This document shows, piece after piece, positions 5,957 through 43,053 of a stretch of DNA of 64,000 nt. The notes under the pieces are model-generated. The model worked only from the letters and a program-made list of their open reading frames with translations. It was not told where the DNA came from and ran no database searches. Made by a program: the position numbers and the translations under genes. How positions within the stretch are numbered: position 1 is the first letter of the stretch; every line of letters starts with the position of its first letter. Origin of the DNA: Flavobacterium palustre (GTDB lineage Bacteria > Bacteroidota > Bacteroidia > Flavobacteriales > Flavobacteriaceae); NCBI RefSeq assembly GCF_014639535.1, contig NZ_BMGA01000001.1, positions 1-64,000 on the forward strand, given 5' to 3'.

Positions 5957-6653
5957 ATTAATATTTTATTCTTATTATTCCGTTGGGTGAAATTATCAAA
6001 AATGTCAGTTTACCACTCCGTCAGTTCGACTTGAAAACCAATTTGCGACAGAAAATGGGTTCGAAGTATCGAAAGCTATTTTTTACACAAGGCTTCTCGT
6101 CCCGATAGCTATCGGGACATTTTGGCTTATTTAAATCCTAATCTCAAAAGAAAAACTATCAAGCCAAAATACTCGAAGTGACGAAAACGGAACGTCAGTT
6201 CACCGCACCGTCAATTCGAGTTGAGAACTCATTTGCGACAGAAAATGGGTTCGAAGTATCGAGAACTATTTTGTACACTAGACTTCTCGATACTCCCGAA
6301 ACTTCGGGATTCTGAAAAGCTATTCGCATTTTCTGAAAATTCACTCGAAGTGACGAAAACAGAACGTCAGTTCGAGTTGAAAACCAATTTGCGACAGAAA
6401 ATGGTTTCGAAGTATCGAGAACTCAGATTTAAACAAGACTTCTTGATACAATTCGCTACTCGAAGTGACGTAACAGAACGTCAATCCTCCACACCGTCAG
6501 TTCGAGTAATTTTTAAAGCTAAAACAATATTCATTATTAAATCAAAGCATCTGCTTTAAAAATTGTATCGAGAACCGAGAACCATTTTGCAAACAAAACT
6601 TCTCGATACGCTTCGCTACTCGAAGTGACGCAACAACATATTGGTTCCAATTA
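5957..6653. repeat. Four composite palindromic elements in tandem
   Basis: No gene. Four copies follow each other: 6019-6183, 6209-6355, 6365-6470 and 6495-6630. Each begins with a CGTCAGTTCGAGT-like end and finishes with ACTCGAAGTGACG, and each contains the central arm GTATCGAGAA...TTCTCGATAC (partly degenerate in copies 1 and 3). The side arms differ. Copies 1-3 carry an arm with loop GCGACAGA; copy 4 has AATTTTTAAAGC/GCTTTAAAAATT. The second arm is TTTTGGCTT/AAGCCAAAA (copy 1), TCCCGAA/TTCGGGA plus a degenerate stem (copy 2), or the short GCTTCGCT form (copy 4; degenerate in copy 3). Copy 1 has the 16-bp palindrome inserted in its central arm. Confidence 0.85.
6101..6116. repeat. 16-bp palindrome, copy 4, nested in a composite element
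   Basis: Perfect CCCGATAGCTATCGGG placed inside the 3' half of the central arm of the element 6019-6183, where other copies read TTCTCGATAC. It looks like an insertion of one repeat into another. Confidence 0.75.
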
Positions 6654-7793
6654 TTATTCAAAGAAATTAATGATCACTTCTTTAATTCTATTTTTATCAT
6701 CCTCACTAAGATGAGATCCCGAAGGCAGACACAATCCTCTTTCAAACAAACTTTCCGCAACCTTATTTCCATAATACGGATAACCTGAAAAAATGGGTTG
6801 CAAATGCATCGGTTTCCAAAGCGGACGGCTCTCAATGTTTGCTGTTTCAAAAGCCAGCCTTAAACTTTCCCTATCTCTTTTTTTTTCAGTATTAGGTTTT
6901 ACTAAAATAGTACTCAACCAATAATTTGAAAAAACAGCTTCATTTGAAACCTCCAAAAGTACTGCATCTTCAATCGTTTCAAAAATGCTTTTGTAAAAAA
7001 AATGATTCGTTCTCCTTTTTCCAACATTTTCATTCAAAACGGTTAACTGACCAAGACCTATTCCGGCGCAAATATTGCTCATTCTGTAATTATAACCAAT
7101 ATGGCAATGTTCGTAATGTACCGCATCCTCTTTCGATTGAGTGGCATAGAAAATGGCTCTTTCTTTTAATAATTTTGAATCGGAAATTAAAGCACCGCCT
7201 GCGGAAGTGCTAATAATTTTATTTCCATTAAAAGACAAAACCCCAAAAGTGCCCAAAGTCCCGCATGCTCGCCCTTTGTAAGAACTTCCCAAAGCTTCGG
7301 CAGCATCTTCAATAACCGGAATTCCATAACGGTCAGCAATTGTGTGAATTTCATCTGCTTTATAAGGCATTCCATACAAATGAACAGCGATTATTGCTTT
7401 CGGCTTCTTACCTTTGGCTATTCTATCTTCTATCGCTCCTTCTAAAGCTTTTGGACAAATGTTCCAGGTATCGGCTTCACTATCAATAAAAATTGGAGTT
7501 GCCCCCTGATACAAAATAGGATTGGCTGAAGCCGAAAAGGTCAGACTTTGGCAAATTACCTCATCTCCGGATTTTATCCCTAATAATATTAAAGCCAAAT
7601 GAATAGCAGAAGTTCCCGAATTTAACGCCGTAACAAAATTGTCACTTCCAAAATATTTTTCCAGTTCATCCTCAAAGGCATCCACATTGGGTCCGCCCGA
7701 AGTGATCCAATGAGTCTCTAAAGCTTTTTGAACGTATTCCTGCTCAAAACCACTTTGTTGAGAAAGCGAAAGAAAAACCCTTTTATTATCCAT
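6654..7793 (-). CDS. DegT/DnrJ/EryC1 PLP-dependent sugar aminotransferase
   Basis: Probably transfers an amino group from glutamate to C4 or C3 of a keto-sugar nucleotide. The fold-type I PLP site is intact: D163 (in IEDAAEALGS) and the Schiff-base lysine K192 in SFNGNK. The WITSGGPNV opening and the HIGYNYRMSN motif resemble PglE/WlbE-type UDP-4-amino-sugar transaminases. At 379 residues it has the normal length. Its first 8 bases overlap the end of the cupin gene at 7786, so the two are translationally coupled and likely act in one pathway. The substrate could be the WbpM/PglF-like product or a dTDP-3-keto sugar made by the cupin; I cannot decide. Confidence 0.88.
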   Translation of the reverse strand: MDNKRVFLSLSQQSGFEQEYVQKALETHWITSGGPNVDAFEDELEKYFGSDNFVTALNSGTSAIHLALILLGIKSGDEVICQSLTFSASANPILYQGATPIFIDSEADTWNICPKALEGAIEDRIAKGKKPKAIIAVHLYGMPYKADEIHTIADRYGIPVIEDAAEALGSSYKGRACGTLGTFGVLSFNGNKIISTSAGGALISDSKLLKERAIFYATQSKEDAVHYEHCHIGYNYRMSNICAGIGLGQLTVLNENVGKRRTNHFFYKSIFETIEDAVLLEVSNEAVFSNYWLSTILVKPNTEKKRDRESLRLAFETANIESRPLWKPMHLQPIFSGYPYYGNKVAESLFERGLCLPSGSHLSEDDKNRIKEVIINFFE

Positions 7794-8211
7794 TTAACAC
7801 CCAATAATCCGAAGGATAACGAACATCGTCTTCGCTTACATCAGCCAATGGCAAAGTTGAAAATGACAGTAATTTGGAATGAGATTCCAATGATTCTATT
7901 GCATTGGCATATCCCGCCGGAATATGAACTATTTTGCTGTCTGATTCCGACATCTCAACAGTTTCTATTACTAAATCTTTTGAAGGATTGTCCCAGTTAT
8001 CAATTTTTACAAAATGAATTTTGAAAGCCCCATTTAAACAATAAAAATTCTTGGCGTCCAGTTTATGCCCCTGCCAGGCACGAATAGGGTTTTCATCGGA
8101 ATTACTAATAATGTAAAATCTTTCGATTTCCTTAAAACTAAAATCATTTACATAAGAAATACTTCCCCGATGATCTGAGAAATTGCCACCCTGAATTATT
8201 TTCGGATTCAT
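7786..8211 (-). CDS. WxcM/FdtA-like cupin sugar 3,4-ketoisomerase
   Basis: A 141-residue single-domain cupin of the FdtA/QdtA/WxcM type. Such enzymes move the keto group of dTDP-4-keto-6-deoxyglucose from C4 to C3 before transamination. The opening DHRGSISYVND and the RAWQGHK segment (the family usually has R-x-x-H in this position) are visible, as is the IPAGYANAIESLE barrel end. It overlaps the aminotransferase start by 8 bases, supporting a two-step amino-sugar branch. The family is clear, but some members are uncharacterised epimerases, so the exact reaction is inferred. Confidence 0.75.
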   Translation of the reverse strand: MNPKIIQGGNFSDHRGSISYVNDFSFKEIERFYIISNSDENPIRAWQGHKLDAKNFYCLNGAFKIHFVKIDNWDNPSKDLVIETVEMSESDSKIVHIPAGYANAIESLESHSKLLSFSTLPLADVSEDDVRYPSDYWVLNG

Positions 8212-8241
8212 ATTTTTTTTATCTAGTTGTGGGTCAACTGT

Positions 8242-8257
8242 CCCAATAGCTATCGGG
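8242..8257. repeat. 16-bp palindrome, degenerate copy 5
   Basis: CCCAATAGCTATCGGG, one change from the consensus. It is followed by ACACTAATTATTTTTT, resembling the tail of the copy at 131. Confidence 0.7.
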
Positions 8258-8450
8258 ACACTAATTATTTTTTACAAGCTGTATGGCTAAATGACTACCA
8301 AAGATTGCTTTACCTGTTCGCTATCGCTCGGGTCGCAAATTATTTTTATATGCTTTGCGTTAAAAAATTACTGCTGATATACTGATTTAACATCAAATAT
8401 TGAAAATCTTTGTTTGTCTTGTGTTCACATTTTAAATTAATGAACCATAT

Positions 8451-8535
8451 ATGCTTTATGTATGCTTTATGTATGCTTTATGTATGCTTTATGTATGCTT
8501 TATGTATGCTTTATGTATGCTTTATGTATGCTTTA
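8451..8535. repeat. 11-bp tandem array (ATGCTTTATGT), seven full copies plus a partial
   Basis: Seven exact copies of ATGCTTTATGT from 8451 to 8527, then an eighth partial copy to 8535. There are no mismatches between copies, which suggests recent expansion. It directly abuts a composite element lacking its left half (8538-8586). Confidence 0.95.
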
Positions 8536-8537
8536 AT

Positions 8538-8860
8538 TTTTCCGAAAAAGCTATTTGCATTTTCGGAAAATTCACTCGAAGTGACGAAAACGGAACGTCA
8601 GTTCGAGTTGAGAACTCATTTGCGACAGAAAATGAGTTCGAAGTATAAAGAACCTTTTAGTAAACAAAGCTTCTCGATACTCCCGAAACTTCGGGATTCT
8701 GAAAAACTATTCGCATTTTCTGAAAATTCACTCGAAGTGACGAATACGGAACGTCAGTTCGAGTTGAGAACTCATTTGCGACAGAAAATGAGTTCGAAGT
8801 ATCGAGAACCTTTTAGTAAACAAAACTACTTCTCGATACGCTTCGCTACTCGAAGTGACA
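8538..8860. repeat. Composite palindromic elements beside the GIY-YIG gene
   Basis: A right half-element at 8538-8586 has TTTTCCGAAAA (8538-8548) pairing with TTTTCGGAAAA (8560-8570), then ACTCGAAGTGACG. Full copies follow at 8596-8742 and 8752-8860. Each full copy has the arm GAACTCATTT/AAATGAGTTC (perfect 10 bp) and the central arm ending TTCTCGATAC. The first has the TCCCGAA/TTCGGGA side arm, the second the short GCTTCGCT form. The last copy ends 20 bases from the stop of the GIY-YIG gene. Confidence 0.85.
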
Positions 8861-8879
8861 TTCCCTTAAGCGAGAATTA

Positions 8880-9173
8880 TTACTTTCCAAAACTCTTTTT
8901 TGCCAAATTAACCAACTCATCAAAATCATCATTAATTAATGCTTCTTTTTTAGCTCTAGACCATTTTTTAATTTGTTTTTCCTTTTCAATTGCTAAATTA
9001 ATATCCGTAAACTCACAATAAAAAACTAATTCTAACGGTCTCCTGTTAAAAGTAAAACAATCGGGGTAAAACCCTGAATTATGTTTAAACATCCTAGCCG
9101 ACAGATTACTCGTAACACCTGTGTAATAGCTCCCATCAGAACATTTTAAAATATAAACAAAAGACTGTTTCAT
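8880..9173 (-). CDS. Small single-domain GIY-YIG endonuclease
   Basis: A 97-residue protein consisting only of a GIY-YIG nuclease domain. The VY (6-7) and YYTG (16-19) strands, R27, H31 and E48 (in RRPLEL) match the family's active-site pattern, and a basic helix (KEKQIKKWSRAKKEAL) follows. It resembles the UPF0213/YhbQ-type small nucleases common in Bacteroidetes. It has no evident role in glycan synthesis. Composite palindromic elements end 20 bases beyond its stop, and a degenerate element begins about 20 bases upstream of its start. This suggests an association with the repeats, perhaps as their processing or mobility enzyme; that is inference. Confidence 0.85.
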   Translation of the reverse strand: MKQSFVYILKCSDGSYYTGVTSNLSARMFKHNSGFYPDCFTFNRRPLELVFYCEFTDINLAIEKEKQIKKWSRAKKEALINDDFDELVNLAKKSFGK

Positions 9174-9561
9174 CTCATTTCTTTTATTTAAGTACTTTCG
9201 ATACTTCCTAAAACTTCTCGATACACTTCTCTATTCGAAGTAACGAAAACGGAACGTCAGTTCAAGTTGAGAACTCATTTGCGATAGAAAATGGGTTCGA
9301 AGTATCGAGAACTATTCTGAAACCAAACTTCTCGATACTCCCGAAACTTCGGGATTCTGAAAAGCTATTCGCATTTTCTGAAAATTCACTCGAAGTGACG
9401 AATACGGAACGTCAGTTCGAGTGATTTTTAAAGCTGAAACAATATTCATTATTAATTCAAATCATCCGCTTTAAAAATTGTATCGAGAACCGAGAACCAT
9501 TTTGCAAACAAGACTTCTCGATACGCTTCGCTACTCGAAGTGACGGAAACGGAACCTCAGT
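9174..9561. repeat. Composite palindromic elements upstream of the GIY-YIG gene
   Basis: No gene. A degenerate half-element lies at about 9193-9245, full copies at 9255-9400 and 9410-9545, and a lone left end at 9571-9583. The copy at 9410-9545 shows the plan clearly: ATTTTTAAAGC (9424-9434) pairs with GCTTTAAAAAT (9468-9478), GTATCGAGAA (9480-9489) pairs with TTCTCGATAC (9515-9524), GCTTCGCT forms the short arm (9525-9532), and ACTCGAAGTGACG closes it. Confidence 0.85.
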
Positions 9562-10536
9562 TTATCTCCTCGTCAGTTCGAGTTGAGAATCACTCTTTTT
9601 TAACAAATAAAATTTTAAACTATAGACTAAAAGTAAAGGAATTACAACAATAGCAAACAAAATTATGTCTTCAACTTTTTGATAAAGCGATATAACCAAA
9701 AATGAAATTCCGGCCTGAACTAAGGCATAATACAAAGCAACCAATCTGTGTTGTATTTTATATTCATTACTTAAAACCTGATACAAATGCAGTCGATGCG
9801 CTTCAAAAATATTCTGTTTTAGATAAAGGCGATGCAAAATGGTACAAACCGCATCAGCACCATAAACTGCTAAAAACAAAAGCCAGATTAAAGAATTGGT
9901 TTTCAAAATCAGTTTTAAAACCAAATAAATTATCCAGAAAGCAATGGCAATACTTCCCACATCTCCGGCAAAACATTTGGCTTTTTTTCTGTAATTAAAA
10001 AACAAAAATACCAAACTTGCCAACATCGCATATTTTATAAAACTTCCATCTGTAAAAAGCTGAATTTTGTTATTCACATATAACAAAGAGCCCATTACCG
10101 TCAAGGTGTAAAGACCAGTAATGCCATTAATGCCATCCATGAAATTATAAGCATTGATTAAACCAATAGAAAAAACATAGGCTATTACTACACCCCAGAT
10201 AGGGATTAAATGAAACAATTCCAAATCTAAAAACAGCACAGTGATTGCCAAAAAATGAATCGAGATTCTTATTTTATTGGATAAACTTTTAATATCGTCC
10301 CAAAAACTGACCAAACTCACTAATGTAATTCCTGTAAAGAAAAAATAATTAGTTGGAATGTGTTGTGCAAAATAAAGCAAGGCGGAAAACCAAAAAATGA
10401 TTCCGCCGCCTCTTAAGGTTATTTCAGTATGTGAACTTCTCTGATTGGGTTTGTCAATAATATTAAAACGATCTGCTACTTTAAAATAAAGCAGCATCAA
10501 AATCATTAAAACAATTCCCAGTAATGTGTATTCCAT
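9562..10536 (-). CDS. WecA/WbpL/MraY-family undecaprenyl-phosphate sugar-1-phosphate transferase
   Basis: Predicted initiating enzyme: it moves a HexNAc-1-phosphate from its UDP donor to undecaprenyl phosphate at the inner membrane. About ten membrane segments are visible. Conserved positions include RGGG (42-45), the Asp pair D80-D81, N131 and D134 (NFMDGING), D192 (FAGDVGS) and the HRLH motif (247-250). At 324 residues it matches WbpL-type members. Neighbours supply a WbpM-like dehydratase and a WbpK-like SDR. The last residues (about SQLELTRR) and the stop codon are read from a truncated composite palindromic element, so the native C-terminus was probably replaced. Confidence 0.88.
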   Translation of the reverse strand: MEYTLLGIVLMILMLLYFKVADRFNIIDKPNQRSSHTEITLRGGGIIFWFSALLYFAQHIPTNYFFFTGITLVSLVSFWDDIKSLSNKIRISIHFLAITVLFLDLELFHLIPIWGVVIAYVFSIGLINAYNFMDGINGITGLYTLTVMGSLLYVNNKIQLFTDGSFIKYAMLASLVFLFFNYRKKAKCFAGDVGSIAIAFWIIYLVLKLILKTNSLIWLLFLAVYGADAVCTILHRLYLKQNIFEAHRLHLYQVLSNEYKIQHRLVALYYALVQAGISFLVISLYQKVEDIILFAIVVIPLLLVYSLKFYLLKKSDSQLELTRR

Positions 10537-10550
10537 TATTTATCCCGAGT

Positions 10551-11483
10551 TTACTCCCAATTAGTATCTTTAATTTCATCATAAACTTTCTGAATACCTT
10601 CTTCCAAAGAAGTTTTTGCTTTCCAGCCCAGACTGCTTAATTTAGAAACATCCATCAATTTACGAGGTGTACCATCTGGTTTAGAAGTATCCGTCAGAAT
10701 TTCCCCTTCAAAACCAACTATTTTTTTCACCAAAATAGCCAAATCTAAAATGGAAATATCTTCACCAACTCCAATATTGACCAATCCTTCTTCATCATAA
10801 TTTTCCATTAAATACAAACAGGCAGCCGCTAAATCATCCGCATGTAGAAATTCTCTTTTAGGAGTTCCTGTTCCCCATATAGTCACAGAAGCCTCGCCAT
10901 TGCGCTTAGCTGTAATGAACTTACGCAGCATCGCCGGCAAAACATGGGAATTTTTCAAATCGTAATTATCATTAGGACCGTATAAATTGGTAGGCATTAC
11001 CGAAATGAAGTTACAGCCATACTGTGAGCGATAGCCATCACACATCTTTATCCCTGCAATTTTAGCAATAGCATAAGGTTCGTTTGTCGGCTCTAAAAGT
11101 CCCGTTAACAAATAATCTTCTTTTAAAGGTTGTGGTGCCATTTTGGGATAAATGCAGGAAGAGCCTAAAAACATTAGTTTTTTTACCTTATTTACATAAG
11201 CCTGATGGATTACATTATTCTGAATCATCAAATTCTCATAGATAAAATCCCCCCTAAAAGTATTATTGGCTACAATCCCTCCAACTTTGGCTGCTGCCAA
11301 AAAAACATAATCGGGTTTTTCCTCTGCAAAAAAATCAGCCACTGCTTCTTGATTTCTTAAATCCAGCTCAGATGAAGTTCGTAACAAAAAGTTACTATAT
11401 CCTTGTGCTTCTAAAGCTCTTAAAATAGCAGAACCCACCATTCCGCGGTGACCTGCAATATATATTTTGTCTTGTTTATCCAT
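10551..11483 (-). CDS. fcl: GDP-L-fucose synthase
   Basis: Epimerises and reduces GDP-4-keto-6-deoxymannose to GDP-L-fucose with NADPH. The SDR signature GHRGMVGS (11-18), active-site Ser around 108-109 (LGSSCIYPK), and Y137/K141 (YAIAK) are present. At 310 residues it is a usual Fcl length. It works with gmd upstream (392 bases away), manC at 35501, and the GT11 fucosyltransferase at 21578. Confidence 0.95.
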
Positions 11484-11875
11484 TTTTTATAATACAAATA
11501 TTTCAAAGTATATTTATGCATTGTTCTTCAAATCGAGAATTAATTTGGTAAGCTAAGAACAATGTGAAATGACGTTTTAAAATAGTTATTTCAAAATAGC
11601 ACTAATTTCCGGCCTTCGAATCCGCAGTCGAGTGTCAAATGTTTGAAGAATCCGAAAAAAGAAAAACTGTTTGAGCATAGTGAAACGGAGCGAGTTTTTT
11701 TCTTTTAGGATTCAAAAACTAATTTGACCGACGAGGATTCTAGCCTTGATTTTTTGCTTCTTTTGTATCAAGACAAAAGAAGAATTAAATTTGATATAAT
11801 GTTATTACTAAATTTTAAAGTACATTTTTTTACTTATTCATTGGTAGCCTAGTCGAGATTCAAGCACTAAAATTA
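11484..11875. repeat. Composite inverted repeat in the gmd-fcl gap
   Basis: No gene. An imperfect outer inverted repeat pairs 11611-11640 with 11722-11745 (shared blocks GGC, AATCC, GTCG, TCAAAT). Nested inside are GAATCC (11648-11653) with GGATTC (11708-11713) and A-rich/T-rich arms. Just beyond, CTTCTTTTGT (11757-11766), loop ATCAAG, and ACAAAAGAAG (11773-11782) form a perfect 10-bp hairpin. This is a different family from the CGTCASTTCGAGT elements. The hairpins separate two genes of the same pathway. Confidence 0.65.
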
Positions 11876-12991: not shown

Positions 12992-13010
12992 TTTTTATTT
13001 CTTTATATCT

Positions 13011-14723: not shown

Positions 14724-14745
14724 AAGAACTAAATTAATATTAAAA

Positions 14746-15579: not shown

Positions 15580-16154
15580 TTATTGATTTCAAAATCATAT
15601 TTTTTAACAACCTTAGCAGGATTCCCAGCTGCAATTGAATATGGAGGTATCGATTTAGTAACTACCGATAAAGCTCCAACTATACATCCTTCACCAATGG
15701 TTATTCCTGGTAAAATACATACTGATTCTCCAAGCCAAACATTATCACCAATCACTACAGGTTTACATATAGCCTTTCTTTCTTCTGGAATGCTCATTGG
15801 ATGATCGCTTATTAGATCATCATAATTCCCGTGATTATGGTCTGATATATAAATTTTACTTGCCATCAAAACATTATTACCAATTGTTATATTACCAACA
15901 GCACCAATATGTACATAATCATTAATCTGTACATTATCTCCTATGGTTATACAATATTCATCATTTTTATCAAGTGGAAAAGCTTCAATTCTACAGCCAA
16001 AACCTGCAGTAAACCTTCTACCTATTTTAATAAATCTTCTATTTCGAATATCAAAAGGCAATCTTATTAATCTAGCTTTATAAAAAAATATTTTTGTATA
16101 GATTAGAGAAACAACAAGTCTTATTGATCCTAAAAAGCCGTATCTATTTAACAT
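15564..16154 (-). CDS. Left-handed beta-helix O- or N-acetyltransferase (WcaF/Maa type)
   Basis: A 196-residue hexapeptide-repeat acyltransferase. Imperfect repeats such as IGDNVQINDYVHIGAVGNITIGNN run from about 70 to 180, with the catalytic-loop motif SDHNHGNYDD and a typical VAAGNPAKVVKKY-like ending. It probably O-acetylates a sugar of the repeat unit using acetyl-CoA. It overlaps the downstream 2OG oxygenase gene, which suggests joint modification of the glycan. Confidence 0.85.
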   Translation of the reverse strand: MLNRYGFLGSIRLVVSLIYTKIFFYKARLIRLPFDIRNRRFIKIGRRFTAGFGCRIEAFPLDKNDEYCITIGDNVQINDYVHIGAVGNITIGNNVLMASKIYISDHNHGNYDDLISDHPMSIPEERKAICKPVVIGDNVWLGESVCILPGITIGEGCIVGALSVVTKSIPPYSIAAGNPAKVVKKYDFEINKWIKV

Positions 16155-16156
16155 AT

Positions 16157-17266: not shown

Positions 17267-17272
17267 ATATTT

Positions 17273-30569: not shown

Positions 30570-31625
30570 CTATACTATTGATTTTAAGATTTTTCTAATA
30601 ATCAACAGCAGTACTGTTAAAAAACCGGACAAAATACCGCCCAAGACAATTCCTTTTGCTTTTCCAAATTTCTCCTTTGCCAAAGGCAAAATCGGTCGGT
30701 CAATTACCTGAATCAATGGCGTTTCTTTACGCAAGGTTACTTTGGCTAATTCGGTTTGCTTCACCAACTCAGTCAAAATTGCTGTATTCGCCTGAACATC
30801 GACTTGTCGTCTAGCCGAAGGCGCACGCCTCACATTCATCGCGGGATTCAATCCAAAGGTATTGTCATTGGCCACCGCCACTCCGGTAATCGCTCCATTG
30901 AGTTCGCGACGAATAGAATCAGTCTGACGTTCTAAAATCAACATATTTTCACGGGATTTCTTGCTTTTCGTATCAATATAAAAATCAGATACTTCCTTCG
31001 CTAAAGCTTCACAAAAATATTTAGAAAACAATTCATTCTCAGAAGCAACATCAATATTGATAATGGAGATCTTTTTATCCTTTTGAGCTACTGACAAAGC
31101 AGATTTTGATAAATTAGTATAAATGCTCCCCATAATACTATCCTGAACACGGGTGAATTTTTGACGATCGGCATGGGGTAAAAATTGAAGTTTTGCAAGA
31201 TTAGACTTTTCTTCCCATCCTTTTCGCCATTCATTATTTTGAATGTACATCTCTGCCAGAGAAATAGTCTTACCGTCTACAACAACGGGACTTAGCAAAG
31301 TTTTTTCTACCATTGCTCTTGACTTGAACAATTCAGTTAAATTAGAACCCGTGAACATACTACCTCCACCGCCTCCTAGATCAATACCAAAAGAACTGGC
31401 TAATCCTAAAGCGCCTCCTAGACCGCCACCTTTTTCATCTTCTAAGGCAAAAGACAGGGTCGCCGTATAGACTGGTTTTTTGACAAAAGAATATGCTAAT
31501 CCTAAAGCGGCTCCTACAATTCCTGCTAACACAATAATCTTCCATTGCGAAAGCAAATAGTCAAACCATTCCCTTGCTTTTTGTAATAATTCCTTTAAGG
31601 ATATTTCGTCGTTTTGTTCGTTCAT
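30570..31625 (-). CDS. Wzz-family chain-length/polysaccharide co-polymerase protein
   Basis: A 351-residue protein with one membrane segment near 32-50 and a second near the C-terminus (GIVLGGILSGFLTVLLLII). Between them is a periplasmic region with a Gly-rich patch around 68-92 and predicted coiled helices. Proline-rich IDRPILPLAKEK precedes the last segment, as in Wzz proteins. No kinase domain. It sits beside the large SLBB exporter, a natural pair, and is one of two such proteins in the locus (the other is Wzc). Confidence 0.82.
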   Translation of the reverse strand: MNEQNDEISLKELLQKAREWFDYLLSQWKIIVLAGIVGAALGLAYSFVKKPVYTATLSFALEDEKGGGLGGALGLASSFGIDLGGGGGSMFTGSNLTELFKSRAMVEKTLLSPVVVDGKTISLAEMYIQNNEWRKGWEEKSNLAKLQFLPHADRQKFTRVQDSIMGSIYTNLSKSALSVAQKDKKISIINIDVASENELFSKYFCEALAKEVSDFYIDTKSKKSRENMLILERQTDSIRRELNGAITGVAVANDNTFGLNPAMNVRRAPSARRQVDVQANTAILTELVKQTELAKVTLRKETPLIQVIDRPILPLAKEKFGKAKGIVLGGILSGFLTVLLLIIRKILKSIV

Positions 31626-31630
31626 TTTTT

Positions 31631-31728
31631 TGTTATCAGTTATCAGTTGTCGGTTATCGGTTGTGAGTTATCAGTTTTGGATTGTTTAGAACTGTCGCTG
31701 ACAACAGACAACTCACAACCGACAACTG
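31631..31728. repeat. GTTATCAGTT-family inverted array between the exporter and Wzz genes
   Basis: Left half CAGTTATCAGTTGTCGG-like and right half ACTCACAACCGACAACTG are near reverse complements, so the 98 bases can fold as a long imperfect hairpin. It has the same words as the arrays bracketing the gene at 41325, but no gene lies between the halves. Confidence 0.65.
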
Positions 31729-31733
31729 AATTT

Positions 31734-34157: not shown

Positions 34158-34445
34158 TTTAAATGTTTTTTTTCGATTACAAAATTCGAAACAGAATTTT
34201 TATTTTAGGAATACCTCCTAAGGGTAATTTATTTAGATTATTTATTTTTCGTCACCCGAGCTGAAAGCGAACAGGCGAAGCAGTTCTAGTAAATTTTCCG
34301 AAAAATGAGAACGTCACTTCGAGTAGCGAAGCGTATCGAGAAGCCTATCGTAAACCATCGTTCTCGATACATTTTTATAAAAATGCTACCGCTATTTTAT
34401 AAAAAAACTCGAACTGACGGCTGCCGAATTAACTGATGATACTGC
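34158..34445. repeat. Composite palindromic element between rmlB and the exporter gene
   Basis: A complete compact copy at 34312-34419 (108 bases). CGTCACTTCGAGT (34312-34324) pairs with ACTCGAACTGACG (34407-34419) with one mismatch. GCGAAGC forms a mini-hairpin (34326-34332). GTATCGAGAA (34333-34342) pairs with TTCTCGATAC (34361-34370) across an 18-base loop. TTTTTATAAAA (34372-34382) pairs with TTTTATAAAAA (34395-34405). Orientation is opposite to the copies at 6-9.6 kb. No gene is present. Confidence 0.9.
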
Positions 34446-35492: not shown

Positions 35493-35500
35493 CTTATTTA

Positions 35501-36505
35501 TTAATTTAATAATTCTGAATTTTGTGTTTCTAACTCATTATACAAATCCTTCACATCCTGTGAATACTCTTTTTGCAAAACCAGATTAGCATTTTCAGTA
35601 GCAACCAAAATGGTGTTTTTCATACCTATGAAAGCGGTAAAATTTTGAACCCCTATTACCATATTACCATTTTCATCCACGGGATGTCCTTTAGACAATA
35701 AATAATCATAAACCGATTCAAAAGAACCCAAATCAGACCAAAGAAACTGAGAGTGTATTACTTTTATCTTTTTAGAACGCTCCATCACGGCATAATCCAC
35801 ACTGATAGACGGGATTTCCAATGACAAGTCCAGGTCTAATTTCCCATCCTGATTATGCTCCCAGACTTTTTTCGCTTTTTTATAGACTTTAGGCTGAAAA
35901 TGTTTCAATTCATCCAATAAGACTCCGGCTTTGAAGCAAAACATCCCGCTATTCCATAAAAAATTCTTCTTGGCAATAAAATTTTTGGCCGTCTCCAAAT
36001 TGGGTTTTTCCCTGAATGACAATACATTTTCACCTTTAGACTCTATATAGCCATAACCGGTTTCGGGTTTGGTAGGCACAATTCCAAAAGTAACAATATG
36101 CCCCTTTAATGCTTTTTGAATGGCTTCATTTACTGCCTCATCGTAAAGCTCTTTCTTTTCGATAATGTGATCCATCGGGGTAACTATTAAAATATCATCC
36201 GGATCAGCTGCTAAAGCTGCAAAAGCAATGGCTGCAGCGGTATTCCTTGGCGTAGATTCAACAATATCCAGATAAGGTACATTTTTCTTTTCTAAAATAG
36301 CTCTGCTCAAATGACAATTATCGGTATTTCCTACTACAATGACCTTATCAGCAATAGCACTGTTACGCTCTACTGTTAATTCAAACAAAGACTTTCCTTC
36401 AAATATTTCTAAATATTGTTTAGGTCTGCTTTTACGCGACAAAGGCCATAAACGGCTCCCTACTCCTCCGGTAAGGATAACATGTATAATATTGTGTTTT
36501 TTCAT
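35501..36505 (-). CDS. manC: Mannose-1-phosphate guanylyltransferase, single domain
   Basis: Makes GDP-mannose from GTP and mannose-1-phosphate, feeding gmd and fcl. LTGGVGSRLWPLSR (11-24) and PKQY are the nucleotidyltransferase signature. At 334 residues it lacks the C-terminal phosphomannose isomerase cupin found in the long ManC form, so isomerase and phosphomannomutase activities must come from elsewhere; no such gene is in the locus. Confidence 0.92.
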   Translation of the reverse strand: MKKHNIIHVILTGGVGSRLWPLSRKSRPKQYLEIFEGKSLFELTVERNSAIADKVIVVGNTDNCHLSRAILEKKNVPYLDIVESTPRNTAAAIAFAALAADPDDILIVTPMDHIIEKKELYDEAVNEAIQKALKGHIVTFGIVPTKPETGYGYIESKGENVLSFREKPNLETAKNFIAKKNFLWNSGMFCFKAGVLLDELKHFQPKVYKKAKKVWEHNQDGKLDLDLSLEIPSISVDYAVMERSKKIKVIHSQFLWSDLGSFESVYDYLLSKGHPVDENGNMVIGVQNFTAFIGMKNTILVATENANLVLQKEYSQDVKDLYNELETQNSELLN

Positions 36506-36507
36506 TT

Positions 36508-36597
36508 TTCGTTGTTCGATATTCGATGGTTGTTATTCGCTGTTCATTTTTCGTTGTTCGATAGTCGGTGGACGATAAACGATGAACGATTAACGAT
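36508..36597. repeat. CGTTGTTCG/CGATGG short-repeat array, 3' side of the four-helix gene
   Basis: Degenerate 8-10 base units (CGTTGTTCG, ATTCGATGG, GATAGTCGG) and then inverted forms (ACGATGAACGATTAACGATT). The stop codon of the adjacent four-helix-bundle gene lies in the last unit. The same words bracket the other side at 36961-37095. Confidence 0.7.
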
Positions 36598-36944
36598 TAA
36601 ACCTGAAGCGACTTAATCAATTTATATAACATCATTTTAATCCTATTACATAAGTCAAACAACAACTTATAATCATTATCAGAAATGTAACCAAGTTCTT
36701 TTGACAAAAATAAATGATAATTAGTTTCTTCTAATGATCCTTTTGATATATACAAAAACTGGATAAACTCTTTTTTATATTGCCTTGCTTGTCCTTCAAT
36801 AATATTAGTTGGCACACTGGAAGCACTTCTTCTGACCTGACTAATTAAACCAAAACGTTCTGATTCAGGGAACCTTTGGGTTATTTTATAGACTTCCAAT
36901 ACCAATTGGTGAGAAACTTTCCAAACTTCTAAATTAGCTTCCAT
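36597..36944 (-). CDS. Four-helix-bundle protein of the 23S rRNA intervening-sequence (IVP) family
   Basis: A 115-residue all-helical protein. MEANLEVWKVSHQLVLEVYKITQ, the RFGLISQVRRSASSVPTNIIEG core and the SLEETNYHL helix are typical of the S23/IVP family (relatives include Avd of diversity-generating retroelements). I set the start at the ATG at 36944; a reading frame open to 37001 only adds residues translated from the flanking repeat. Function is unknown for free-standing members; RNA or DNA binding is suspected. It is bracketed by one repeat family on both sides and is not a glycan gene. Confidence 0.85.
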   Translation of the reverse strand: MEANLEVWKVSHQLVLEVYKITQRFPESERFGLISQVRRSASSVPTNIIEGQARQYKKEFIQFLYISKGSLEETNYHLFLSKELGYISDNDYKLLFDLCNRIKMMLYKLIKSLQV

Positions 36945-36960
36945 TGTTTCGTTTTTCCTT

Positions 36961-37095
36961 GTTAGATAGTCATTGTTCGATGGCCGTTGTTCGTTGTTCA
37001 ATCAACGATGGACAATTTTCGTTGTTCGCTATTCGTTGTTCGCTATTCGATAGACGATGGACGATTTTCGATGGACGATTTTCGATGGACGACTA
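36961..37095. repeat. CGTTGTTCG/CGATGG short-repeat array, 5' side of the four-helix gene
   Basis: About 135 bases of degenerate units: TCGTTGTTCGCTATTCG repeated, then CGATGGACGATTTT repeated three times. It ends one base before the stop codon of the downstream-coordinate dehydrogenase gene. Confidence 0.75.
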
Positions 37096-38385
37096 TCACA
37101 ACTTTCCATCCACATTAGCCTTTAAAATCCCCTTAACATCATAAATAATACTATTCTGTTTTCGAAGTGTTGACAAATCCATAGTTAAAAAAGAAGTATG
37201 CGCTACTCCTAGTACTATAGCGTCAAATTTCTCTTGTGGTATCAGACTTGTTGTGCTTAGCTGATATTCTTTTTTCACTTCATCTGGATTCGCTAACGGA
37301 TCAAATGTGGTAACTGAAATTCCGTATTCCTGCAATGCTTTAATCACATCAACTATTTTAGTATTGCGAACATCAGGACAGTTTTCTTTAAAAGTAATTC
37401 CAAGCATTAATAATCTGGCTCCATTAACCGAAATTCCTTTTTTAATCATCAATTTGACCACTTGTGCCGCGACATAATCACCCATGCTGTCATTCAATCG
37501 TCGTCCTGCCAATATAATTTCAGGATGATAGCCTAATTCCTGTGCTTTTTGTGCCAAATAATAAGGATCCACCCCGATGCAATGCCCGCCAACTAATCCC
37601 GGCTTAAATGGTAAAAAATTCCATTTGGTTGCTGCTGCTGCTAAAACCGCCTGGGTATCAATATCCATTAAATTGAATATTTTAGCCAATTCGTTGACAA
37701 AAGCAATATTAATGTCTCGTTGGGAATTTTCGATTACTTTGGCTGCTTCGGCTACTTTTATAGATGGGGCTAAATGTGTTCCGGCAGTAATTACAGACTG
37801 GTACAATTCATTTACTTTTTTTCCTGTTTCAGGAGTAGAACCTGCAGTAACTTTCAGAATTTTATCTACAGTATGTTCCTTATCACCCGGATTGATTCGC
37901 TCAGGAGAATAGCCTGCAAAAAAGTCAACATTAAATTGCAATCCTGATATTCTTTCCAAAACGGGTACACATTCCTCCTCTGTAACCCCAGGATAAACAG
38001 TTGACTCATAAATGACAATATCTCCTTTTTTCAAAACTTTTGCCACAGTTTCACTGGCTTTGTACAAAGGAGTCAAATCAGGACGATTGTTTTTATCGAC
38101 AGGAGTTGGTACCGTTACAATATAATAATTGCAGTCGGCTATGTCTTTTAAATCAGAACTGCAGTACAGTCCTTTTTGTTTTTTAATTTCCTCATTTGAA
38201 ACTAAAACCGATTTCAAAGCAACTGCTTCCACCTCAAAAGTAGTATCAATCCCTGAACGTAGTTCTTCTATCCGTTTTTCATTAATATCAAATCCTACAA
38301 CAGCGTATTTTGTAGCAAACAATCGAGCCAATGGCAAGCCCACATAACCCAAACCGATAACTGCTATTTTCAAACTACAATCCAT
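37096..38385 (-). CDS. UDP-N-acetylhexosamine 6-dehydrogenase (TviB/WbpA/VipA type)
   Basis: Oxidises a UDP-HexNAc to its uronic acid in two NAD-dependent steps. GLGYVG (11-16), the YESTVYPG segment, K216 and the catalytic C269 in GGHCIGVDP are present. The 429 residues and the SDLKDIADCNYYIVTVPTPVD stretch fit the Vi-antigen TviB subgroup rather than UDP-glucose dehydrogenases. A TviC-like epimerase at 41770 suggests UDP-GalNAcA, though UDP-ManNAcA or GlcNAcA are possible. Confidence 0.88.
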   Translation of the reverse strand: MDCSLKIAVIGLGYVGLPLARLFATKYAVVGFDINEKRIEELRSGIDTTFEVEAVALKSVLVSNEEIKKQKGLYCSSDLKDIADCNYYIVTVPTPVDKNNRPDLTPLYKASETVAKVLKKGDIVIYESTVYPGVTEEECVPVLERISGLQFNVDFFAGYSPERINPGDKEHTVDKILKVTAGSTPETGKKVNELYQSVITAGTHLAPSIKVAEAAKVIENSQRDINIAFVNELAKIFNLMDIDTQAVLAAAATKWNFLPFKPGLVGGHCIGVDPYYLAQKAQELGYHPEIILAGRRLNDSMGDYVAAQVVKLMIKKGISVNGARLLMLGITFKENCPDVRNTKIVDVIKALQEYGISVTTFDPLANPDEVKKEYQLSTTSLIPQEKFDAIVLGVAHTSFLTMDLSTLRKQNSIIYDVKGILKANVDGKL

Positions 38386-38665
38386 TGATTTATACTATTT
38401 TTAGCTGAAATACGAGAATATACTCCAACGCTTCGCGGTTCCAACCCACATAAAATGGGGCAGAAATCCAATTTTTTTTCGCCTGCAAATATAAACGACA
38501 AAAAGCTGAATTCCTATAAATATTTAAAATTTGAAAGAAAAATAATAAATTAAAAACATTAACAACCAAAAAGCTACGGTTAAAAGGCATTAAAAACCAG
38601 ACAAACAACAACATAAGAACTTTCTTTCCATTTTTAATAAAAACAAAAAAAGGAAAAATCCCCTC
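38386..38665. other. Leader-like spacer between upxY and the TviB-like gene
   Basis: 280 bases with no convincing gene. A locally GC-richer patch (about 38426-38462) contains CGCTTCGCG, a GCGAAGC-type mini-hairpin on the minus strand. An open frame (38390-38614) exists, but its sequence is low-complexity hydrophobic plus the patch, and I do not accept it. Being just after an antiterminator gene, the region could include an antitermination or pausing signal; nothing specific is recognised. Confidence 0.4.
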
Positions 38666-39145
38666 TTATTTCATTTTAACCTTCAAAACACAACCCATAG
38701 ATTCCAATACCAAAACATAATTGTTCTTATTGACCTCCTGAACAATCGCCTCCTGAGACTTAAAAGGCCCTGATTCTAAGATTAACTTATCTCCTACCTG
38801 TATCGAAGTAACAGCAATTTCATACTGATCCGGGTTACTAAGCCATTTCTGAATGGTATCAATTTCATCATCCCTTACAATTGCCGGCTTTCCCAGCCAA
38901 AAAAGATAACGAACCACCCCTGATGACTGAAAAACTAAATTCCGGTCTTTTTCAGCTAAGCGGACAAAAATATAGGAATTAAAAAGAGGCACTTCTACCT
39001 TTTTTTTCCTGTCCGACCACTGTTTTATTTGAGTAACCAAAGGACAATAGCAATCAATACCCCTTTGGATCAGTTGTTCTGCTACTTTTTTTTCCCACTT
39101 CGGTTTTGTGTAAACCACATACCAATTCATTTTTTCTTTCTGCAT
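38666..39145 (-). CDS. UpxY-family (NusG-like) transcription antiterminator
   Basis: A 159-residue protein with a NusG N-terminal domain: WYVVYTKPKWEKKVAEQL opening and FNSYIFVRL strand, then a KOW-like end (GDKLILESGPFKSQEAIVQEV). In Bacteroides, UpxY proteins bind RNA polymerase and let it read long capsule operons. The first ATG (39145) and one five codons later (39130) are both plausible. It stands at the head of about 39 kb of same-strand genes, after 689 bases of palindromic elements, so it probably controls most of the locus. Confidence 0.87.
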   Translation of the reverse strand: MQKEKMNWYVVYTKPKWEKKVAEQLIQRGIDCYCPLVTQIKQWSDRKKKVEVPLFNSYIFVRLAEKDRNLVFQSSGVVRYLFWLGKPAIVRDDEIDTIQKWLSNPDQYEIAVTSIQVGDKLILESGPFKSQEAIVQEVNKNNYVLVLESMGCVLKVKMK

Positions 39146-39834
39146 TGAAATAGAAATATAAAGTTCTTAATATACCCTTGGCTGAAATTGTTTTTTGACT
39201 GTAAATTTTGTCAGTTCTTTAAAGCTTAGCGTAAGTTCGAGTAGATTTTAAGAAAACACAAACAGCTTTTTCAAAAAATTGGCATCGAGAACAATTCTGT
39301 TATAAAACCTTCTCGATACGTTTTATTCCGTTTCACTCCATAAAAACACTCGAAGTGACGAAGCAGATACCAGACTACAAACCGTCAGTTAGTTACAACT
39401 TAGCGTCAGTTCGAGTGATTTTTAAAGCCAACTAATTTTCATCTTTAACAAAAAGAACCGCTTTAAAAATTGTATCGAGAACTATTTTTAGCAAAAACGT
39501 CATAAGGTCATCAACCGTCAGCTAGAGTAATTTTTAAAGTGAACTAATCTCCCTCTTTTTAAAAACACCTCACTTTAAAATTTTTAGTTTTCCCGTAAGT
39601 TTGAGCTGAGAACCATCCTGCACACAAAACTTCTCGATACATTTTTGGCTTATTAAACCCCGCTTCAATTGAAACACTTTTAAGCCAAAAACACTCGAAG
39701 TGACGAAAACAGACATCAGTTCATCACCTCGTCAGTTCGAGTGGATTTTCAAAAAATGCAAACAGCTTTTTCTGAAAATTTATATCGAGAACCAATTACA
39801 TCCAAATCCGTCAAGACCAATTTACAATCTAGTT
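39146..39834. repeat. Array of full and truncated composite palindromic elements upstream of upxY
   Basis: No gene. A full copy at 39230-39360 has side arm TTTTAT/ATAAAA and central arm ATCGAGAA/TTCTCGAT. Left portions begin at 39404 (with GATTTTTAAAGC and GCTTTAAAAATT) and 39516 (AATTTTTAAAGTG and CACTTTAAAATT). A copy with a degenerate left end runs 39593-39705 with arms ATTTTTGGCTTA/TAAGCCAAAAA. Another left portion is at 39730-39791, near the dehydrogenase stop. The upxY promoter should lie near the low-coordinate end of this gap, but no clear TAnnTTTG box is seen. Confidence 0.8.
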
Positions 39835-41226
39835 TTAAGAGCCTATCGCCTGATATACAAAACCAATCTTCTCCAAAACCGCTTTGTCTAAAATATTTCT
39901 TCCGTCAAAAACAAAAGCTGGTTTTTGCATTGCATCGTAGATTTTTTGCCAGTCGTAAGCAACGAATTCGTCCCACTCAGTAAGAATTGCTACCGCATGA
40001 GCATTCGAACAGGCCTCATAAGGATTTTCAAACGACAAGATGCTTTTCGCATTTTCATCAGCTGTTCTTGTTTGCAAATAATCCAAATCGGCTAACACCT
40101 TTTTTCTTGATACTTTAGGATCATAAACTGCTATTTTCGCATTTTCATTAATCAAATCATCAGCCACATAAATAGCCGCTGATTCCCGTGTATCATTGGT
40201 ATCTTTCTTAAAAGCCCAACCTAAAAAAGCAATCTTTTTATCAGAAACCGTATTATAAAGTGTTTTCACAATAGTATCTGAAAAACGTCTTTTTTGGTGG
40301 TCATTCATAATAATCACCTGCTCCCAATAATCGGCTACTTCCTGCAAACCATACGACTTAGCTATGTAAACCAAATTCAATATATCTTTTTGAAAACAAG
40401 AGCCTCCAAAACCTACCGAAGCTTTAAGGAATTTAGGTCCGATTCGGCTGTCCATTCCAATAGCTCTCGCTACCTCATTGACATCAGCTCCGGTCTTCTC
40501 ACAAAGTTCAGACATCGCATTGATGGAAGAGATTCTTTGTGCTAAGAAAGCATTGGCAGTCAGTTTTGACAATTCCGAAGACCAAACATTGGTAGTCAGA
40601 ATTTTATCAACCGCAACCCAATTCGCATACACATCCACTAATGCCTGAATGGCCTTTTGTCCTTCTGCCGTAGTATCACCACCAATTAAAATTCGATCCG
40701 GATGCAATAAATCCTGCACTGCTGTTCCTTCGGCTAAAAACTCAGGATTGGATAGAATCTGAAATTTCACTCCGTTACCGGTATTATCTAAAATACTTTT
40801 TATTGCTTCCGCAGTTCGCACCGGCAAAGTCGATTTTTCTACTACAATCTTATTGCTTTTGGAAACTCTGGCAATTTGTCTGGCGCACAACTCAATGTAC
40901 TTTAAATCGGCCGCCATACCTTTTCCTTTTCCGTAGGTTTTTGTTGGCGTATTCACCGAAATAAAAATCATCTCCGCTTCATCGATTGCCTGATCCACTG
41001 CTGTAGAAAAGAATAAATTCCGTCCTCTTGCTTCCTTCACTATTTCAGAAAGCCCCGGTTCGTAAATTGGAATATTATTAACATCTGCATCATTCCAGGC
41101 CGCAATTCTTTCTTCATTCAAATCCACTACCGTTACCTGTATCTGCGGACATTTTTGTGCTATAATTGCCATTGTAGGCCCTCCAACATAGCCAGCTCCA
41201 ATGCAACAAATTTTTGTAATTTTCAT
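39835..41226 (-). CDS. ugd: UDP-glucose 6-dehydrogenase
   Basis: Oxidises UDP-glucose to UDP-glucuronic acid. G10-A-G12-YV-G15 binds NAD, and C277 in [10 protein letters not shown] is the catalytic cysteine. The 463 residues with [20 protein letters not shown] are characteristic of the longer, eukaryote-like Ugd. This gives a second uronic-acid route besides the TviB-like enzyme. Confidence 0.93.
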
Positions 41227-41237
41227 TTATTTTTTTC

Positions 41238-41320
41238 TGTTATCAGTTATCGGTTGTGGGTTGTCAATTTTGGGTTATCTGTTATCGTTATCTACTAACT
41301 GACAACCCAAAACTGACAAC
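41238..41320. repeat. GTTATCAGTT-family inverted array, 3' side of the four-helix gene
   Basis: GTTATCAGTTATCGGTTGTG words followed by ACTGACAACCCAAAACTGAC words, roughly reverse complementary, so a hairpin is possible. It ends 4 bases before the stop codon of the gene at 41325. Confidence 0.7.
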
Positions 41321-41324
41321 ATAT

Positions 41325-41693
41325 TTATATTTTCCAATGTTCTTCTACGTACTTCAGGAAAGAAAAAATTTTGGCTCCCAAAACATCATATCCTTCATAA
41401 AGCATTTTAATATCATCAGCCAAATAAGGATACAAATTGACTATCTTTTCAATATGATTAAGTGTTTCTAAATTACTTGCGTGAGAGTAAACCAAAAATT
41501 TAATAAAATCATTTTTATACCTTCTACGCCCATATCCCTCCACAATATTTGTCACTACAGAATCGGAAGACCTTCTAATTTGACTTCCCAATTCATAAAG
41601 TTCATATTTAGGCAATTGCATAGATAAAGAATGAGTTTTGTAAAACAATTCCATTCCGATGGTATAAATATCTAAATCTTTATAACTTTTCAC
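41325..41693 (-). CDS. Four-helix-bundle protein of the 23S rRNA intervening-sequence (IVP) family
   Basis: A 122-residue helical protein: MKSYKDLDIYTIGMELFYKTHSL opening (split here over the first helix), the ELGSQIRRSSDSVVTNIVEG core that defines the family, and KFLVYSHASNLETLNH. It is a distinct member from the copy at 36597. It is bracketed by GTTATCAGTT-family arrays at 41238-41320 and 41731-41770. Function unknown; not part of sugar metabolism. Confidence 0.87.
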   Translation of the reverse strand: MKSYKDLDIYTIGMELFYKTHSLSMQLPKYELYELGSQIRRSSDSVVTNIVEGYGRRRYKNDFIKFLVYSHASNLETLNHIEKIVNLYPYLADDIKMLYEGYDVLGAKIFSFLKYVEEHWKI

Positions 41694-41730
41694 CTACTTC
41701 CAAGTTTAATGATAATAATATTGCTTTTCA

Positions 41731-41770
41731 AACTGTCAACTCACAACTGAGAACCGACAACTCACAACTC
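41731..41770. repeat. GTTATCAGTT-family array, 5' side of the four-helix gene
   Basis: ACTGTCAACTCACAACTGAG then ACCGACAACTCACAACTC, the complement-strand form of the family. It touches the stop codon of the epimerase gene at 41770. Confidence 0.65.
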
Positions 41771-42753
41771 TATCTCAAATTATCCCAATACCAATCAACT
41801 GCTATCTTTAATCCTTCCTGCAAAGAATACTGCGGATTATAGCCCAACAATTCTTTTGCCTTATTAATACTTGCTAATGAGTGCGGAATATCACCTGCTC
41901 TGTTAGGACCGTGAATCACTCCCACATTAGCAATTTCAGAATCATAACTACTCAAATATTCTTTTAAATAACCCACCAAATCATTCAGCGTATTCCTGTC
42001 TCCGTAAGCGGTATTATAAACAGTATTCACCGCCTCCGTATTATCTGTCGAAATCGCCAATTCATTCATCTGAATCACATTGTCGATATAGGTAAAATCA
42101 CGGGAATAATTCCCATCCCCGTTAATCGTAATACTTTCGTGATTCATCAATTGCATGACAAATTTCGGAATTACCGCCGCATAAGCTCCATTAGGATCCT
42201 GTTTTCTTCCAAAAACATTAAAATAACGCAAACCTATCGTTTCTATTCCATAGGTCTTACTAAAAATCTCTGCATACAATTCGTTCACATATTTGGTAAT
42301 CGCATAGGGCGAAAGCGGTTTTCCAATAACTTCTTCGACTTTTGGCAATCCAACTGAATCCCCATAAGTAGAAGAACTGGCTGCATATACAAAACGCTTA
42401 ACCTTCGCTTCTGTAGCCGCCTGAAGCATATTCAAAAAACCCGAAACATTAACATCATTCGTAGTAACAGGATCTTTTATAGAACGCGGAACCGAACCCA
42501 AAGCCGCCTGATGCAACACATAATCAACTCCCTGAACTGCTTTTTTACAATCTTCAATATTCCGTATATCTCCTTCAACCAAAAGAAAGTTTGGATTGTC
42601 CATACAAGCTGCTAAATTGTGACGATGTCCTGTAGCAAAATTATCCAGACAAATCACTTTATTGTCTTTGGACAAAAAATACTCGCACAAATTGGAACCA
42701 ATAAAACCAGCTCCACCTGTTATCAAAATGGTATATTTTGTTATTTCTCTCAT
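41770..42753 (-). CDS. UDP-N-acetylhexosamine 4-epimerase (WbpP/TviC type)
   Basis: Interconverts UDP-GlcNAc and UDP-GalNAc, or their uronic acids. GGAGFIG (13-19), S126-S128 (AASSSTYGDS), and Y150/K154 (YAITK) are present. The 327 residues and the LVEGDIRNIEDCKKAVQGVD stretch fit the WbpP/TviC subgroup. Likely partner of the TviB-like dehydrogenase at 37096, as in Vi-antigen synthesis. Confidence 0.88.
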   Translation of the reverse strand: MREITKYTILITGGAGFIGSNLCEYFLSKDNKVICLDNFATGHRHNLAACMDNPNFLLVEGDIRNIEDCKKAVQGVDYVLHQAALGSVPRSIKDPVTTNDVNVSGFLNMLQAATEAKVKRFVYAASSSTYGDSVGLPKVEEVIGKPLSPYAITKYVNELYAEIFSKTYGIETIGLRYFNVFGRKQDPNGAYAAVIPKFVMQLMNHESITINGDGNYSRDFTYIDNVIQMNELAISTDNTEAVNTVYNTAYGDRNTLNDLVGYLKEYLSSYDSEIANVGVIHGPNRAGDIPHSLASINKAKELLGYNPQYSLQEGLKIAVDWYWDNLR

Positions 42754-42865
42754 TTTCTATTTAAAATTTGCCACCTAGAACCTATTTAAAATTCATCAAA
42801 TTAATCCCCCCAATTCCAAAAGAATGAATTTCTGATGCGTCTTAAGAAATTTTCCACCCTTTAGA

Positions 42866-43053
42866 GCAATGTCATTAAGTTAAGCTTTTTGTCGTCACTT
42901 CGAGTGATTTTAAATAATAATGCGGTAGCTTTATTATTTAAAATTGTATCGAGAAGTCTTGTTTAAACTAGAGTTCTCGATACTGGCTTACGATTTTCTA
43001 TCGCAAATTGTAAGCCAACTCGAACAGACGTATCCTTAACTTAATGACATTGC
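42866..43053. repeat. Composite palindromic element nested in a 19-bp perfect inverted repeat
   Basis: Fills the 354-base gap between wzc and the epimerase gene. GCAATGTCATTAAGTTAAG (42866-42884) is exactly reverse complementary to 43035-43053. Inside, CGTCACTTCGAGT (42893-42905) pairs with ACTCGAACAGACG (43018-43030). Three arms follow: ATTTTAAATAATAA (42907-42920) with TTATTATTTAAAAT (42931-42944); GTATCGAGAA (42946-42955) with TTCTCGATAC (42974-42983); TGGCTTAC (42984-42991) with GTAAGCCA (43010-43017). The predicted fold is a cloverleaf-like junction on a two-part stem. Confidence 0.93.

Follow-up and report, generated by a model that had tools for sequence, protein, structure and literature searches.

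How do palindromic elements with a constant frame and exchangeable arms come to be scattered through a bacterial genome, and what moves them? The question is raised by the first 64,000 nucleotides of contig NZ_BMGA01000001.1 of Flavobacterium palustre (the window, that is, the whole stretch analysed here), in which a preliminary description had recognised ten such elements. We find that each full element is a pair of half-units set head to head, that each half-unit resembles, to judge by its sequence, a repetitive extragenic palindrome (REP) of the CGTC-tagged kind with an enlarged loop, and that in this clade the elements are, with near certainty, associated with a gene for a single-domain GIY-YIG nuclease, one copy of which lies among them in the window. 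The nuclease probably mobilises the elements, in which case the gene-less copies would be miniature derivatives.

All ten copies, with their common frame, were recovered in place by direct reading of the window, where 25 half-units can be counted. Read from the outside in, a half-unit consists of an outer part (O), CGTCA[C/G]TTCGAGT, an arm, and a core part (C), GTATCGAGAA[G/C]; in a full element two halves stand face to face with their O ends outward, and the terminal tag CGTC lies at the outer ends, in the pattern CGTCASTTCGAGT. The gap between the C parts has a median of 20 nt; the 18-base central loop previously called common is the commonest length (34 of 171 gene-less elements). In the list of features that follows, composite elements are given without a strand of their own, and two halves described as facing each other form a head-to-head pair.

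6019..6183: degraded element, with a left half at 6019-6077 (+) and a right core broken by the palindrome TCCCGATAGCTATCGGGA
6209..6355: 6209-6267 (+) facing 6282-6355 (-)
6365..6470: 6365-6423 (+) facing 6438-6470 (-)
6495..6630: 6495-6576 (+) facing 6598-6630 (-)
8596..8742: 8596-8654 (+) facing 8669-8742 (-)
8752..8860: 8752-8810 (+) facing 8828-8860 (-), 3' of the GIY-YIG gene
8880..9173, minus strand: uninterrupted open reading frame (ORF) of 97 amino acids among the elements, single-domain GIY-YIG nuclease (PF01541), the candidate mobiliser
9213..9245, minus strand: half-unit 5' of the GIY-YIG gene
9255..9400: 9255-9313 (+) facing 9327-9400 (-)
9410..9545: 9410-9491 (+) facing 9513-9545 (-)
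34312..34419: 34312-34344 (+) facing 34359-34419 (-), an isolated pair
39230..39360: degenerate head-to-head pair (fold z -1.83)
39404..39483, plus strand: lone half-unit
39629..39705, minus strand: lone half-unit with a TTTTGGCTT arm
39730..39793, plus strand: lone half-unit
42893..43030: head-to-head pair; halves 42893-42957 (+) and 42972-43030 (-), within a shell at 42868..43052

The copies at 39.2-39.8 kb are partially degraded, and the 42.9-kb copy is enclosed by an outer palindromic shell, AATGTCATTAAGTTAAG..CTTAACTTAATGACATT. With up to one mismatch the outer end CGTCAGTTCGAGT occurs 39 times in the 3.97-Mb genome (reversed control, 0), and 26 of these 39 fall in the window (binomial p 1.6e-37, a value that ignores the non-independence of tandem copies). 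Of 299 genomes of the family, 77 contain the exact pattern CGTCASTTCGAGT; its reversed control, where it hits at all, does so no more than once per strand.

The swappable, self-complementary arms of the earlier account are borne out by their pairing (here, as in the half-unit, footprint and end-repeat counts below, loci of the same genome that repeat the window were omitted). The arms measure 7-69 nt, with a median of 30 (581 distinct arms from many genomes), and among the 569 arms of at least 16 nt a stem of at least 8 pairs is found in 65%, as against 4% after shuffling and 16% after an exchange of halves between loci. In an alignment of 15 copies from the genus, 91% of the named cells pair, and both partners have changed at 20 pairs, a number that falls to 3-10 when the partners are slid; the two arms account for 16 of the 20 and the inner part of the central loop for 4, while the outer helix and the initial ten pairs of the central helix contribute none. 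The arms are thus conserved as hairpins rather than as sequence. One of the arm types listed earlier, TCCCGAAACTTCGGGA, is only an extra small hairpin adjoining an arm, in the three copies at 6209, 8596 and 9255.

The fold of the frame is a different matter. A prediction written down before testing was that base 6 would find its partner inside the same half, in the base that follows GAGAA. Of 654 half-units, 596 have this O6-C11 pair (91.1%; 46.5% expected); O7-C10 pairs in 98.9% (91.3% expected), its T-A being switched to A-T or G-C in 25. A C-type and a G-type half are combined in 144 of 173 full elements, and base 6 pairs internally in both halves of 156 of the 173. Across the outer ends it is complementary in 15 and mismatched in 158; the impression of imperfect complementarity at these ends comes from base 6, which one half has as C and the other as G. 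Base pairing within the half is therefore well supported at two positions (O6-C11 and O7-C10), and the stem of the half-unit would hold a GA/GA step. The cloverleaf fold proposed earlier as the object of selection, closed by the outer ends, is weakened by the base 6 mismatches, and the covariation favours within-half pairing; what stands of that proposal is that the four-way fold is the minimum-energy fold of most whole elements. Among nine single-strand DNA folds (eight window elements, one on both strands) z is -5 or lower in eight, the strongest being that of 42893..43030 (z -12.1) and the sole exception that of 39230-39360. Both the four-way and the within-half folds may form.

These features recall a known family, so that the earlier view of the elements as unlike simple REPs does not hold: each half looks like a CGTC-tagged REP, and the whole like a head-to-head dimer. 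The CGTC-tagged superfamily was defined in five phyla by Di Nocera, De Gregorio and Rocco (2013, BMC Genomics 14:522; PMC3733652); according to that paper its tags are CGTC, or TGTC/CCTC, its stems measure 8-9 bp, and it apparently has no dedicated transposase, the term GIY-YIG occurring nowhere in the main text. With these REPs, as described there, the elements share the CGTC/TGTC tag, the hairpin, head-to-head dimers that are commonly heterodimers, and an occasional position within a larger palindrome. They differ from them in three respects: an arm of 7-69 nt stands in place of the published loops of 4-5 nt; CCA, the usual published tail, follows C11 in only 4 and C12 in only 2 of 654 half-units; and a GIY-YIG gene is bracketed by the repeats.

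That gene, at 8880..9173 among the copies, had escaped the preliminary description. Its product matches Pfam PF01541 (E 3.1e-17, 63 bits), and Y7, Y17, G19, R27, H31 and E65, which we take to be the catalytic positions of the domain, are invariant across 42 GIY-YIG sequences. The closest named relative is from F. pokkalii (98%), and the nearest solved structures, 1zg2 and 1ywl, are small uncharacterised UPF0213 proteins. In Flavobacteriales, 78 of the best 80 loci (of 482 relatives) from a scan of named genomes with three GIY-YIG protein queries, blind to the repeats, have at least two element motifs within 600 bp of the gene, the two others being from Chryseobacterium; motif density at these loci is 9.5 per kb near the gene and 0.36 per kb far from it. 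The nearest motifs around 117 GIY-YIG genes of all clades are arranged as C>..C< in 59 cases and as O<..O> in 15, with none in 19, and the gene-bearing unit measures a median of 446 bp from outer end to outer end (range 394-628, n=73). Tandem arrays in other genera (L043, L059) carry a GIY-YIG ORF of about 300 bp inside the central gap of one copy. Among the genomes of the family, 17 matches have a profile E below 1e-45, and all 16 that could be fetched carry motifs (the other had no locus). A hit below 1e-45, a cut-off set after the scores had been seen, occurs in 14 of 36 element-rich and 2 of 36 element-poor genomes (p 0.0013); the former were drawn from the 77 motif-positive genomes and have at least four exact motifs each (G079, G226 and G278 also qualified and were omitted), the latter from the 222 genomes without the motif. 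The gene itself behaves as a mobile one might, being patchily present with up to ten matches per genome, some with internal stops. Matches to the protein were also seen in 19 phage records, in all at less than 60% identity.

The elements also disperse to unrelated loci, with direct repeats at some insertions. The 42.9-kb copy recurs together with its shell at unrelated loci of several congeneric genomes, the best matches being 80-85% identical; the exact pattern for shelled copies is found in 5 of 299 genomes of the genus. At the shell ends, direct repeats of 8-11 nt score at least 8 in 5 of 13 distinct sites and at least 10 in 3 of 13, compared with 3 and 0 of 156 mismatched flank pairs. Within 60 nt of the CGTC ends, direct repeats of at least 9 nt occur in 10 of 60 clusters (4.2% in the control). 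Like miniature inverted-repeat transposable elements (MITEs), as defined in PMC2817692, the gene-less elements are short, non-coding and terminally inverted kin of a larger gene-bearing element; target duplication, a mark of classical MITEs and insertion sequences (IS), was not found at the CGTC ends themselves, the direct repeats just described lying at shell ends or further out.

The association extends beyond this clade. In a tree of 142 GIY-YIG proteins, built on few columns with many weak forks and labelled by motif rules that we set, the label OC, carried by 98 rows including the window nuclease, changes only twice (shuffled mean 38) and all labels together change 12 times (shuffled, 42); repeat type thus co-segregates with nuclease clade. 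The frame tag - N5 - GAG - loop - CGA - N5', with short loops, occurs at other Bacteroidota GIY-YIG loci too. Close to the gene it is present in 12 of 14 loci of one set and 15 of 27 of another, at 2.86 and 1.76 per kb, densities that drop to 0.16 and 0.02 at a distance from the gene; for other groups the count is only 2 of 19 loci. Of 83 distinct frames, 55 have stems with at most one mismatch, as against 7.8% with shuffled partners. An inverted repeat scoring at least 12 flanks the gene in 8 of 14 loci of the OC set (1 of 56 controls) and in 28 of 41 loci of other clades (1 of 165 control windows; L153, L160, L218, L239 and L240 were omitted as short), where many such repeats begin with TGTCA. 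A 32-bp inverted repeat beginning TTGTCATTCCGACGAAGGAGGAATCTC (94%) brackets a GIY-YIG gene at L068:1419-1827. In other phyla and classes, represented by 19 loci on plasmid records (Alpha-, Beta- and Gammaproteobacteria, Cyanobacteria and one Cytophagale; 6 of 25 records and 13 of 34, near-duplicates and weaker rows being left aside), a flanking inverted repeat is present in 15 of 19 loci and 4 of 76 controls, and CGTC-type hairpins occur near the gene in 12 of the 19 and far from it in 4. Canonical CGTC REPs bracket GIY-YIG genes in Rhizobiales, a sphingomonad and Azospirillum; CGTC.ATCCTCGGG.CTTGA.CCCGAGGAT.CCA stands beside the gene in S. meliloti, with a near-copy on both sides in Neorhizobium. 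We lean slightly towards a broader proposal, in which the whole CGTC/TGTC-tagged REP superfamily, in several phyla, owes its mobility to small single-domain GIY-YIG nucleases dedicated to it and would be a second, independent REP system.

Not all results agree with mobilisation by the nuclease or with the structure proposed for the half-unit. A further predicted pair, O5-C12 (A5 with the following T), failed (35.9%, with 37.6% expected, in 654 half-units), four other frame positions are nearly invariant in the same half-units and uninformative on pairing, and the O6-C11 switch may have arisen only once, long ago, and been passed down in two half types. The folding program chose the TCGA/TCGA register, not the GA/GA register, in five of six half-unit folds, and the short half 34312-34345 did not fold as proposed (z -0.71). 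As regards insertion, 8 of the 13 shell-end sites score under 8, some of the repeats there (CGCTCGATAT, GCGCTCAG) resemble other palindromes and may predate insertion, and part of the excess of repeats of at least 9 nt is owed to shelled copies and to a single site that enters the count three times (L010, L011, L214). Within 5 nt of both CGTC ends, direct repeats scoring at least 8 were seen in 1 of 60 clusters and 12 of 3536 mismatched pairs. Three genomes (G349, G334, G345) lack the 42.9-kb copy, yet no empty site could be resolved to the base; G349 has 22 bp at its place, possibly with a remnant. As for the gene, 22 of the 36 element-rich genomes have no hit below 1e-45, at 1e-20 hits occur in 23 of 36 element-rich and 16 of 36 element-poor genomes, and the gene is present in only 3 of 29 loci selected by element. 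In Neisseria (L274) the control windows are as repeat-rich as the locus, which therefore could not be counted.

Such results lend some weight to another explanation, in which the gene is a homing-type passenger that settled in pre-existing CGTC palindromes while the gene-less repeats spread otherwise, for example by local recombination. Most copies are indeed gene-less, arrays of gene-less copies have the gene in the central gap of a single member, and many element-rich genomes have no close relative of the gene. Stand-alone GIY-YIG homing endonucleases, which usually have DNA-binding parts or intron hosts, share with the window protein the GIY-YIG domain and the behaviour of a mobile gene; the present protein differs from them as a lone domain of about 96 amino acids lying between palindromes with many gene-less copies. 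We nevertheless regard a passenger as unlikely: repeat type tracks nuclease clade, and the gene is bracketed most often by tag-outward halves (59 of the 98 genes, among the 117, with any motif near). It is highly improbable that the protein is instead a host factor that resolves or trims cruciforms, linked to the repeats by function and not by mobility. Its nearest solved relatives, small uncharacterised UPF0213 proteins, would suit such a role, whereas its patchy presence, multiple matches per genome and internal stops look like those of a mobile gene.

The general REP-like look of the elements also brings to mind the REP-associated tyrosine transposases (RAYTs), IS200-type Y1 enzymes that serve the GTAG-tagged REPs, and the genome does contain four Y1_Tnp genes. 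According to the parts of Nunvar 2010 (PMC2817692) and of PMC8049555 that treat them, REPs and REP doublets forming hairpins (REPINs) resemble the present elements in that their tagged hairpins form inverted pairs, a cognate nuclease goes with them, and gene-less copies outnumber the gene-bearing ones; they differ in having a tyrosine transposase (RAYT) and a GTAG tag, where we find GIY-YIG and CGTC. No outer end lies within 1.5 kb of any of the four Y1_Tnp loci (one has a single near-match to the core), and, according to Di Nocera 2013 (PMC3733652), CGTC units flanked no tyrosine transposase gene. RAYT is thus rejected as the mobiliser in this genome, and we consider movement of the elements by such an enzyme extremely improbable. 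No DDE transposase was noticed in the loci read, in which no search aimed at such enzymes was made. Selection for an RNA fold, as in stabilisers or terminators of mRNA, would agree with the covarying hairpins and with the position of the 5.9-9.6 kb copies between ORFs that are all on the minus strand. As the principal explanation it is very unlikely, since half of the frame is conserved as sequence, the halves occur in both orientations and in tandem, the link to the nuclease gene is tight, and no Rfam family matches over the elements at the gathering threshold, an existing family having been named at the outset as grounds for refutation. A secondary RNA role is compatible with these data. The only Rfam match in the window, at 55012-55044 on the minus strand, is the S4-Flavobacteria ribosomal protein leader (RF03141).

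Other repeats occur in and around the elements. A small palindrome around CCGATAGCTATCGG lies at 6100-6117, about 131-147 and 8241-8258 in the window and at L207, L208 and L070, apparently inserted in other hairpins that include an element end and a tRNA-like T loop. The element at C1:1190458 (L214) is inside the palindrome CCGTTGGGTGAAATTA..TAATTTCACCCAACGG, the left arm of which also precedes the 6019 copy (about 5981-6001). Tandem repeats of the 11-mer ATGTATGCTTT (8447-8534) adjoin an element copy, a separate array at 36501-37087 has a 14-base pattern (TTCGTTGTTCGATA-like), and short GTTATCAGTT-type repeats are found at 3253-3325, 31611-31690 and 41218-41283. Four single-domain GIY-YIG genes elsewhere lie just 3' of a tRNA gene (L064, in the same genome at C13; L067, at C7; L070 and L072, both at C1); ARAGORN identifies these as tRNA-Met, -Val, -Asn and -Phe, respectively. 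Each gene is followed by a tRNA-like sequence repeating part of the tRNA (called tRNA-Glu at L067), as if a related element targeted tRNA genes.

Mobilisation by the nuclease is the likely explanation, and we infer the following steps of cutting, strand choice and transposition. The element would be a flavobacterial type of CGTC-tagged REP, each half of which has the tag, a short stem (X T T C .. G A A X'), the conserved GAG..CGA, and a hairpin arm replacing the 4-5 nt loop; in the full form, the gene for the nuclease of about 96 amino acids would lie between two halves, gene-less copies deriving from this form. The nuclease may recognise the tag and the hairpin foot on single-stranded or extruded DNA and nick at or near the tag, after which the element would reach a new site by copying or pasting, by way of the replication and repair of the host. 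The sequence of the arm would be free as long as it stays paired, and a fixed frame with swappable arms would therefore result. Tagged palindromic dimers were already known; a GIY-YIG gene bracketed by CGTC-type repeats appears to be new, no published description of the pairing having been found in a search that left most subscription literature outside.

If this is correct, GIY-YIG nucleases would join the chemistries of minimal mobile DNA; under the broader proposal, GIY-YIG chemistry would be used where the GTAG REPs use tyrosine transposases, in an autonomous unit of only about 450 bp. With a candidate enzyme whose gene lies between the repeats and whose clade corresponds to the repeat type, the question of the missing mobiliser of CGTC REPs becomes testable at the bench, and mobilisation by the nuclease would account for the constant frame and variable arms of the flavobacterial repeats.

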